DNA of 64,000 nt. It comes from Streptomyces armeniacus (GTDB lineage Bacteria > Actinomycetota > Actinomycetes > Streptomycetales > Streptomycetaceae). The position numbers and the translations under genes were made by a program. The notes below the pieces were generated by a model. It saw only the letters and a list, made by a program, of their open reading frames with translations. It was not told the origin of the DNA and did no database searches. The DNA lies in assembly GCF_003355155.1 (NCBI RefSeq), contig NZ_CP031320.1, forward strand, positions 1,288,369 through 1,352,368, in the 5' to 3' direction. Shown here one piece after another: positions 37,789-40,304 of this stretch; the stretch's first letter is position 1, and each line of letters opens with the position of its first letter.

Positions 37789-38850
37789 TCAGGACCCCTG
37801 CGCCAGGGAGGCGGCCTCGGCCGGGGAGACGGCCTTGCCGAAGGCCCGCACATCGTCGACGGTCCCGTCGACTCCCCGGAAGAACTCGTTCTCCCCCAGG
37901 CCGCGGCCCACGACGAAGTCTCCCCCTGTCGCGAAGTCCTCTTCGTGATCGACCGATTCACCGGGGCGGCCGTCGACGTACAGGCGGACCTTGCCCGCGG
38001 CCTCGTCGTACACACCCGTCAGATGCGTCCACTGCCCCGCATCGACCTCCACGTCCGAGACGGCCTCGTCCGCGTCAGCGTCGACGTCGTCCGAGGGCCC
38101 TTCCGGAATCCGCATCTCCCACTGCGACTCCTCCGCGTCGTACTGGAGCAGGAAGCCGCTGGACTCCGCACCGTCCTGGCTCACCACCGTCTGCGATCGG
38201 TCCGTGCTGTTCAGCTTCACCCGCGCCGACACGGAGAAGCTGCCTCTCGTGTCGACCAGAGGGCCGTCCGACGCCAGGAACTGGTTCCCGTCGAACTTCA
38301 GCGCCCCTCCCGTCACGGTGCTCGCGGAGGACGGGCCGACGAGCGTGCCGTGGTTGCCGTTGCCCGAGGTGTCGGGGATGACCCCGCCCTCGACATCGTT
38401 GAAGAGCCACTCGACCGCCGAGCCGTCAGCGGGCGGCCGGGGGCGCCGTTCCCCGCCGGGCTTCGAGGGCGGCCCGGCCTCCTTGGAGGGCTTCGCCTTG
38501 GCTTTCGCGGTGGGCGGCGCGGTGGGCGTGCCCGAAGAGGCGGGGGCCTTGGACGACGGTGACGGTGAGGGCTGGGCAGGCGGTGCCGGCGACTTCTTGC
38601 TCTGCGGTGGCCCCTCCGGGGAGTCGTCTCCGGTGAAGCTGAAGACGAATACGGCGGCGACTCCGCCGAGCGCGGCGACCGCCACACCCCGGACGAGGAG
38701 GTCGGTGCCCCGACGGCCTTTCCTACGGGTGCCAGTCGTGCGTGTGCCGGTGCCCGGCGGGCCGGAGACGGCGGGGCGGTTCGCGCGGGTCGCGGGGTTT
38801 CCGGTGCCCGGGGTTCCGGTGCTCCAGAGCTTCGTCGCCAGGGCTTTGGA
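37789..38850 (-). CDS. LamG/concanavalin-like domain membrane protein, 5' end missing
   Basis: 354 codons visible; the 5' end is cut by adapter sequence at 38851, so the N-terminus is unknown. What remains: a basic stretch (RTTGTRRKGRRG), one transmembrane helix (VRGVAVAALGGVAAVFVFSF), a Pro/Ser/Lys-rich linker, and a LamG-type jelly-roll domain at the C-terminus (WLFNDVEGGVIPDTSGNGNHGTL, FSVSARVKLN, TVVSQDGAESSGFLLQYD, HLTGVYDEAAGKVRLYVDG). The LamG part should be outside the cell and the missing N-terminal part inside; in relatives that part may be a kinase or sigma-like domain, which cannot be checked here. Any ORF extended through 38851-39228 is artefactual. Confidence 0.7.
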   Translation of the reverse strand, partial: SKALATKLWSTGTPGTGNPATRANRPAVSGPPGTGTRTTGTRRKGRRGTDLLVRGVAVAALGGVAAVFVFSFTGDDSPEGPPQSKKSPAPPAQPSPSPSSKAPASSGTPTAPPTAKAKAKPSKEAGPPSKPGGERRPRPPADGSAVEWLFNDVEGGVIPDTSGNGNHGTLVGPSSASTVTGGALKFDGNQFLASDGPLVDTRGSFSVSARVKLNSTDRSQTVVSQDGAESSGFLLQYDAEESQWEMRIPEGPSDDVDADADEAVSDVEVDAGQWTHLTGVYDEAAGKVRLYVDGRPGESVDHEEDFATGGDFVVGRGLGENEFFRGVDGTVDDVRAFGKAVSPAEAASLAQGS

Positions 38851-38941
38851 CTGTCTCGTATACACATCAGACGCCGCCGACGAGGGCTGAGGGGTAGATG
38901 TGGGCGGGCACCCGCAGCTCGGGGATGTGTATAAGGGACAG
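38851..38941. other. Illumina Nextera adapter sequence (assembly artefact)
   Basis: 38851-38869 matches the reverse complement of the Tn5 mosaic end at 17 of 19 bases and runs on into the read-1 adapter through 38883 (30 of 33). 38892-38912 resembles the reverse-complemented P5 primer (about 15 of 21). 38923-38941 is the mosaic end again in forward orientation (17 of 19), preceded by GCTCGG as in the read-2 adapter. Translations of this give the peptides MCIRDS and VYTSDAADE, well-known adapter-derived contaminants. Not genomic DNA. Confidence 0.95.
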
Positions 38942-38975
38942 GGGCTGGTCACCGGTGTGGCCGACGGGCGCGGCC

Positions 38976-40304
38976 TCAGAAGCGGCTGTAGAGCAGCCTG
39001 TTGGGTGAGTCGGCGCCGGGCGAGGTGACCTTGCTCTTGCTGCTCGCGTCCAGCATCGCCTTCGTCACGGTCGAGGGCGACGCCGTGGGGTGCGCGCCGA
39101 GGTAGAGCGCCGCCGCGCCGGTGACGTGCGGAGCCGCCATGGACGTACCGGTCATGGTGGCGGACGCCGTGTCCGACGCACGTCCGGCCGAGACGACCTG
39201 GTGGCCGGGCGCGAACAGGTCCACGCACTTGCCGTAGTTGGACGACGCCCAGCGCGCGTCCGTGTCGGACGTCGCAGCCACGGTCAGTACGGCGGGGGCG
39301 CGGGCCGGGGACTGCTGGCAGGAGTCCGTGTTGGAGTTGCCCGCCGAGACGGCCACGGTGACTCCGGCCTCGACCATGCCCGTGACGGCCGCGTCCTTGG
39401 CGTCGGTGGCGGCGCCGCCGATGCTGACGTTGGCGACGGCGGGCTTCACGGCGTTCTTCGCGACCCAGTCGTAGCCCGCGATCACGTCCGCGGTCGTGCC
39501 GCGGTTCTCGCAGTCCAGCACGCGGACCGCGACCAGCTTGGCGGACTTGGCGACCCCGTATGTGGCGCCGCCCACGGTGCCCGCGACATGCGTGCCGTGG
39601 CCGTGGCAGTCGTCGGCCTTCGCGTCGTCGTCGACGAAGTCCACGCCGTACTTGGCGCGACTGCCGAACTCCTCGTGGGTGATGCGGATTCCGGAGTCGA
39701 CGATGTACGCGTTGACGTTGGCGGCCTCGGAGTCGTAGCTGTAGCTGTCGCTCAGCGGGAGGTCGCGCTGGTCGACCCGGTCCAGGCCCCAGGTCGGGTC
39801 GTTCTGGGTGCCGTTGCCGCGCTCGACGCGGTTCTGCTCCACGTACGCCACGGCGGGGTCGGCGGCGAGCCTTCGCGCCTCGTCCCGGTCCGCGGTGACG
39901 GTGAAGCCCTTGAGCGCGGTGGCGTACGTGCGCTGCACGGCGGCGCCGCGCGCGTCCGCGTCGTCGAGCAGGCTGCCGGCCAGCTCGCGTACGGACGTAC
40001 GGGACTTGAGCCGCGCCGAGTCCGCGGCCTCCTCCCCTGTCTTCTTCATCACGACGATGTACTCACCGTCTATCGTGCCGGGTGCGTCGGCGCCGCGTAT
40101 CTCTCCGACTCCCGAGCCCCCGGGACCCGGAGTGTCCGCGGACTCCAACGCGCCTGCGCCGACGGCGGTGCCGCCGATCAGGACGAACGCCGCCGCCGAG
40201 GCGACGGCTATTCGGGATTTCTTCTTCGTTCTCTTCGCGTGCTGCAACGGAGCGAGCCCTTTCGGTCGGGCGTGCGATGGCTGCTCCGTTCTAGCCGTAC
40301 ACAT
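38976..40304 (-). CDS. Secreted S8-family subtilisin-like serine peptidase
   Basis: 442 residues from the first ATG; a TTG at 40247 (LQHAKRTKKKSR, giving 423 residues) better suits the signal peptide and leaves the dyad at 40294-40329 in the promoter. Signal segment RTKKKSRIAVASAAAFVLIGG; inhibitor-I9 propeptide about 75-150 (YIVVMKKTGE ... AVAYVEQNR); catalytic Asp in YIVDSGIR, His in CHGHGTHVAGT, oxyanion Asn in SAGNSN and Ser in GTSMAAPHV. All three catalytic residues are present, so an active exported proteinase-K-like enzyme is expected. 3' end lies 34 bases from the adapter segment. Confidence 0.93.
   Translation of the reverse strand: MCTARTEQPSHARPKGLAPLQHAKRTKKKSRIAVASAAAFVLIGGTAVGAGALESADTPGPGGSGVGEIRGADAPGTIDGEYIVVMKKTGEEAADSARLKSRTSVRELAGSLLDDADARGAAVQRTYATALKGFTVTADRDEARRLAADPAVAYVEQNRVERGNGTQNDPTWGLDRVDQRDLPLSDSYSYDSEAANVNAYIVDSGIRITHEEFGSRAKYGVDFVDDDAKADDCHGHGTHVAGTVGGATYGVAKSAKLVAVRVLDCENRGTTADVIAGYDWVAKNAVKPAVANVSIGGAATDAKDAAVTGMVEAGVTVAVSAGNSNTDSCQQSPARAPAVLTVAATSDTDARWASSNYGKCVDLFAPGHQVVSAGRASDTASATMTGTSMAAPHVTGAAALYLGAHPTASPSTVTKAMLDASSKSKVTSPGADSPNRLLYSRF

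Follow-up and report, generated by a model that had tools for sequence, protein, structure and literature searches.

Does a stretch of sequencing adapter inside a single-contig genome record interrupt true neighbours, or does it mark a place where unrelated sequences were joined? The question is raised by 91 bases (38851-38941) of the window, by which we mean the whole 64,000-nucleotide stretch analysed here, positions 1288369-1352368 of the single 8083249-base (8.08-Mb) contig of Streptomyces armeniacus. We are highly confident that these bases consist of the adapter tails of two contigs set against each other, that contigs were joined in order of length into a pseudo-molecule and that the join at 38913-38916 is false. 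The basis is a set of direct observations: the structure of the adapter, an index shared among scars, a deficit of clean copies, the lengths of N runs, shrinking intervals between junctions and a split gene. The segment itself holds no biological feature, and its interest is one of data quality.

Composition of the adapter segment

Sequences that we take to be the Nextera mosaic end, s5, s7 and P5 were matched to the segment, with a background of 20 scans, for which 10 first-order Markov copies of the window were each read in both orientations. On the reverse strand, where the left contig end runs into adapter, a Tn5/Nextera mosaic end at 38851-38869 (17 of 19 bases) is followed by the s5 (read-1) part at 38870-38883 (13 of 14), a degenerate 8-base i5 sample index at 38884-38891 (GGGCTGAG) and a degenerate P5 flow-cell primer at 38892-38912 (15 of 21). 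On the forward strand, the last six of the 15 bases of the s7 (read-2) part at 38917-38922 (6 of 6) lead into a second mosaic end at 38923-38941 (17 of 19), with which the right contig starts. Both halves have the form of Nextera read-through, in which a mosaic end adjoins s5 or s7. Between them, CGCA at 38913-38916 fits neither adapter; here the left match fades and the right match begins, and this is the probable contig-to-contig joint.

No Markov scan gave a mosaic end better than 13 of 19. The reverse complement of the read-1 adapter (mosaic end plus s5, 38851-38883) scores 30 of 33 (Markov maximum 21), and the read-1 adapter extended by eight free bases and P5 (38851-38920) scores 46 of 62 (maximum 33). 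The read-2 adapter (38908-38941) reaches 25 of 34 (maximum 22), almost wholly from its final 25 bases, 38917-38941 (23 of 25). A preliminary description, made from the letters alone, had claimed Nextera adapter in the assembly at this site. The claim is strongly supported, and its two mosaic-end copies in opposite orientations, 17 of 19 each, are borne out. The comparison with the Nextera adapters that it proposed matched the read-1 adapter, P5 and the end of the read-2 adapter.

Two mosaic ends in opposite orientation are also what a natural element of the Tn5 type or a transposon inserted in the laboratory would leave. However, the s5, P5 and s7 parts are, by the sequences that we take for the Nextera set, library oligonucleotides; the 53 bases between the mosaic ends are too few for a transposase; and the flanking 9-mers, GGCTTTGGA and GGGCTGGTC, differ. 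With neither transposase or cargo nor a 9-base duplication found, a transposon has a negligible probability.

The names given here to genes (S8, FAD enzyme, TetR and others) are presumptive and go by sequence resemblance. To the left of the segment lies the C-terminal part of a LamG-domain protein gene (37789-38850, reverse strand), which is cut at 38850 by the adapter and retains 353 codons and a stop. To the right, the first gene of the right contig is an S8 (subtilisin-type) peptidase gene from the ORF list (38976-40304, reverse strand), which has an FAD-enzyme neighbour in relatives. An artefactual ORF of 479 aa (37789-39228, reverse strand) extends from within the S8 gene region across the adapter and on into the LamG gene; it contains the adapter-derived stretch SSAASDVYTRQ. 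Both peptides that had been named as recognised contaminant signatures are encoded in the ORF list: VYTSDAADE lies near the end of the ORF at 37991-38890(+), one residue ahead of the stop, and MCIRDS is the start of the ORF at 38313-38867(-). Neither string was found in the literature searched, which leaves their recognised status unconfirmed.

Adapter scars across the assembly

The scar of the preliminary description stands, but the scale of the phenomenon and the continuation of the left flank elsewhere had been missed. Across the contig there are 92 mosaic-end copies at up to three mismatches (51 forward, 41 reverse), and a reversed-pattern control gave no match in the same contig at that threshold. 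By fixed thresholds, s5 follows in 52 of the 92 copies and s7 in 12; the other 28 lead into neither. Seven of these 28 adjoin N, and the right-hand mosaic end of the present segment, its s7 part cut short, is also counted among them. The imbalance of 52 to 12 (binomial P 4.6e-7) would fit a poorer quality of read 2. The s5 pattern alone was useless as a probe in this GC-rich genome, with 1151 matches against 564 in the control at up to two mismatches.

When copies within 300 bases are grouped, 82 junctions result, and both mosaic ends were found (at up to three mismatches) in only ten of them. The record is one contig, and so the contig ends referred to here are inferred ones. In all ten paired junctions the reverse copy is on the left and the forward copy on the right, as expected for two contig tails set together. 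The term concatemer, applied earlier to the 91 bases, is thus not supported; they read as back-to-back adapter tails of two contigs.

A related possibility is the ligation of adapter dimers or concatemers into library molecules, through which the assembler would have bridged two loci. It would account for two adapters that face each other without an insert at 38851-38941, and for another scar (L095), where the mosaic ends of two s7 adapters together span 68 bases. Yet many copies run via P5 into poly-A and an unrelated tail before the next contig begins, and at the present joint neither adapter reaches its full length. Random bridging also gives no reason for the length-ordered spacing described below, and we regard this origin as extremely unlikely.

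Several scars have features of their own. In three of them (L088, L108 and L079), long poly-C or poly-A follows almost straight after the mosaic end in place of s5 or s7. Another (L104) has an N run of at least 185 bases (537-721) that lies away from the mosaic end and is unlike the adapter-length runs. A run of at least four C or G occurs in the last eight bases before the mosaic end at 32 of the 92 contig ends (counted from L001-L020 and L051-L110), compared with 4.7% of random window positions; perhaps reads fail at C/G runs near contig ends. The median GC content of the 100 bases before the mosaic end is 0.750 versus 0.720 for window tiles, which is suggestive only of GC-rich contig ends as a cause.

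Sample index

The eight bases at 38884-38891, previously noted as a possible index, are a two-error copy of the index found at other scars. We take AGGCTTAG to be the reverse complement of Nextera index S508 and GGACTCCT to be N705. The column consensus of the eight bases after s5 is AGGCCTAG and that after s7 is GGACCCCT. Both are one T-to-C change away from the respective index, and in the fifth place of both T is a close second (19 versus 22 C after s5; 4 versus 7 after s7). Among 18 Nextera i5 indices, S508 fits best over 17 well-preserved scars (5.59 of 8; next 3.18) and reaches 5.56 of 8 over the 16 others when 38884-38891 is left out. Similarly, N705 is the best of 12 Nextera i7 indices over 10 copies (5.80 of 8; next 3.20). 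At the present scar, GGGCTGAG matches S508 at six of eight bases and every other listed i5 index at three or fewer. Judged by these matches, the eight bases most likely represent the sample index of the library itself. The order of a shared 8-base index followed by P5, characteristic of Nextera read-through, is found here.

Survival of degenerate copies

Mosaic-end copies with 0, 1, 2 and 3 mismatches number 0, 2, 54 and 36, and partners with four or more mismatches also exist. From the 3:2 ratio of the last two classes, about 74 copies with zero or one mismatch are expected; two are observed. We conclude that the degeneracy is a matter of survivorship. The deficit of clean copies is explained by a trimmer with a tolerance of one mismatch in 19, and either of two trimmer defaults, a similarity cut-off of 0.9 on a 19-base adapter or a 10% error rate, would fit. 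Such scars are easily overlooked by exact matching: a 19-base search finds none of the 92 copies and a 12-base search only eight.

Cut-offs differ between assemblies of the genus. Counts at 0-3 mismatches are 0, 0, 9, 4 in G017 and 0, 1, 9, 0 in G032. The counts in G138 (1, 31, 4, 2) and G123 (1, 66, 8, 1) do not fit a tolerance of one mismatch and suggest that the trimmer there removed exact copies only. In G218, all of the matches listed (13 of 29 copies) are exact.

Masking has left a similar trace. Eight N runs adjoin a mosaic end: four are exactly 47 bases long, one is exactly 51 and the others are 10, 26 and 37. The first two lengths are those of adapter bodies as we assume them, 47 being s7 (15) plus index (8) plus P7 (24), and 51 being s5 (14) plus index (8) plus P5 (29). 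Runs of A follow four of the five full-length N runs, the exception being that at L081. We read the full-length runs as masked adapter bodies; the degenerate copies escaped this masking.

The errors were at first attributed to two-colour Illumina chemistry. Past the end of the adapter, four-colour instruments give poly-A and two-colour instruments poly-G. In the 23 copies where P5 can be recognised (that at 38851-38941 excluded), the next ten bases beyond its end add up to 230, of which A accounts for 131, C for 48, G for 28 and T for 23. The poly-G expected of a two-colour origin is thus lacking; on balance the argument fails, and the tails point to four-colour chemistry. The lean of mismatches toward G, on which the argument had rested, holds for the plus strand at this site (9 of 13 mismatches), but not for mosaic ends genome-wide, where C is commonest: read into the adapter, the substitutions in the 92 copies are C in 125, G in 47, T in 24 and A in 21 of 217 cases. 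The 13 mismatches of the present segment, each half read into its adapter, are seven G, four C and two A. The best point in favour of the two-colour view is an excess of G among the errors in P5: in copies whose s5 is good, G makes up 129 of the 333 wrong bases there, more than any other base.

We favour base-calling phasing in late cycles as the source of error. Internal mosaic-end substitutions equal a neighbouring adapter base in 158 of 201 cases, compared with 118.6 (s.d. 6.3) in a control that preserved substitution type, though not position hot spots, and in which none of 2000 trials was as high.

Length order of the junctions and a split gene

Junctions are sparse in the first 2 Mb of the contig, at 2.5 per Mb, and become dense after 7.8 Mb, at 106 per Mb. 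The intervals between junctions set 24 record lows along the contig, versus a mean of 5.0 and a maximum of 14 in 20000 shuffles, and the record-low interval drops stepwise from 606 kb to 1.1 kb. The Spearman correlation of interval with position is -0.879; the minimum in 2000 shuffles was -0.353. Such shrinking is what contigs of decreasing length, written end to end, would give, and the pieces stand in the length order of a concatenated pseudo-chromosome. Single intervals are not monotonic, as is expected if contigs were merged at joins that left no detectable scar.

The left flank of the join provides an independent line of evidence. The four closest relatives of the LamG protein (P0005-P0008) have 601-665 aa, and the counterparts at two other loci have 661 aa (L122) and about 690 aa (L121). 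The missing N-terminal part lies at G000:C1:7996257-7997006 of the same contig and is 66% identical to that of L121. This piece (about 7996.2-7997.2 kb) also runs into adapter, with a mosaic end at 7997234. Aligned to the 664-residue P0005, the two pieces cover residues 5-316 at 74% identity and residues 321-664 at 75%. The gap between them is four residues on P0005 and 39, 18 and 11 residues on P0006, P0007 and P0008, respectively, and it lies in a variable linker. The halves are 6.67 Mb apart (1.327 and 7.997 Mb), each beside an adapter scar, and the sequences indicate one LamG gene split between two adapter-capped contig ends. Because the gene is cut here and its missing half lies by another scar, the join at 38913-38916 is false. 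A gene that breaks at one join and continues at another is a mark of a concatenated pseudo-chromosome; the test covered this one join, at 38851-38941.

It could be argued that the flanks are truly adjacent, that a scaffold gap was closed with adapter-bearing reads and that only the 91 bases are wrong. Adapter at the join would be expected in that case too, and N runs do occur inside some junctions. However, the missing half of the left gene lies far off beside another scar, the junctions draw closer together along the contig, as they would in a list sorted by length, and five of the eight N runs match an adapter body exactly in length, which is more in keeping with masking than with gaps. Gap filling is thus very unlikely, and the joining of contigs in order of length accounts for these observations.

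As to the programs that trimmed, joined and masked, their order and the read-2 origin of the tails, we infer the following course of events. Fragments of a Nextera (Tn5) library would have been shorter than the reads, which would then pass the mosaic end into s5 or s7, the index and P5 or P7. A trimmer tolerating about one mismatch in 19 would take out the clean copies. Error-rich copies, probably largely from read 2 given the 52:12 ratio of s5 to s7, would survive and extend the contig ends. Sorted by length, the contigs would next have been strung together into a single 8.08-Mb pseudo-molecule, with N masking the adapter bodies at several of the joins. The true neighbour of the left contig end at the present scar is the contig end 6.67 Mb away.

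The right flank

The right flank offers no independent proof of a false join. In five of the six fetched stretches with an S8 match (L123-L127, not L130), no more than 2.5 kb separates this match from a relative of the same FAD-enzyme gene. In the same five relatives a TetR-type gene follows the S8 gene, and in four of them genes for a VOC-type protein and a kinase lie beyond it. The TetR block of the present genome is at 4.58-4.59 Mb, 3.26 Mb from the S8 gene, such that the S8-TetR neighbourhood of the five relatives is broken here (window 38976-40304 versus G000:C1:4590000-4590999). Either a real rearrangement or a false join without a scar may lie behind the break. No adapter scar was present in the 500 bases examined at the TetR block, and a real rearrangement is therefore possible on the right side.

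Other genomes and significance

At up to two mismatches, 42 of 295 genomes of the genus (that of the window included) have at least one mosaic-end match and 32 have two or more. The chance level is given by the reversed pattern, which matches once each in 20 of the 295 genomes and never more. One genome resembles the present assembly in being a single contig with many copies and shrinking intervals: G012, of 9.03 Mb, has 162 copies at up to three mismatches and 102 at up to two, and among the 100 matches listed none is exact and three have one mismatch. Its intervals, from 93 of the 102 copies, set 16 record lows (as many in none of 20000 shuffles), with a Spearman correlation of -0.769. Apparently G012 is also a concatenation. 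In draft relatives, the forward copies among the matches listed are within the first 150 bases of a contig, with one exception (G253:C22:48965). A draft of 5.9 Mb in about 140 contigs (G145) has 292 copies at up to three mismatches, roughly the number of its contig ends.

At least 120 stretches of GTDB species genomes, and likewise at least 120 of IMG/VR, contain the exact 33-base sequence of mosaic end plus s5. Of the 85 matches in the 80 GTDB stretches that were checked, 81 are no more than 70 bases from an end of the stretch. These contig-end cases share the sequence with the scars described here, but there it is exact and near an end, whereas here it is degenerate and internal.

The main text of Moeller et al. 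(2024; PMC11536531) describes adapter at contig ends, with its reverse complement at contig starts, and contamination of isolates and metagenome-assembled genomes (MGnify genomes) despite reported trimming. As described there, the search used exact 12-base TruSeq matches; here the adapter is Nextera, its copies are degenerate, and the joining of contigs has placed them within a single one. That main text contains no words beginning with Nextera, mismatch or scaffold. No description of a length-ordered pseudo-chromosome, or of survivorship of degenerate copies, was found in those parts of the literature on adapters, trimming and concatenation that were searched. Adapter at contig ends is thus already published, and the length-ordered pseudo-chromosome is a useful addition.

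We think it likely that some single-contig 'complete' reference genomes are length-ordered concatenations of drafts, at least two of the 295 (the present one and G012), which degenerate scars and shrinking spacing expose without reads. The scars remain because trimmers and maskers remove mainly the good copies. The present record serves as the genome of its species in the set searched, at 100% completeness and in one contig. It has 82 places with adapter at a false or suspect join, and gene order and gene-cluster calls across such joins are unsafe. At the join studied here, the LamG gene has been cut (a product of 298 aa versus 601-665 aa) and an ORF with an adapter peptide has been created. 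The 298-aa LamG product in the protein database (P0004), which comes from a contig of 8083249 bases, is the truncated form from this genome.
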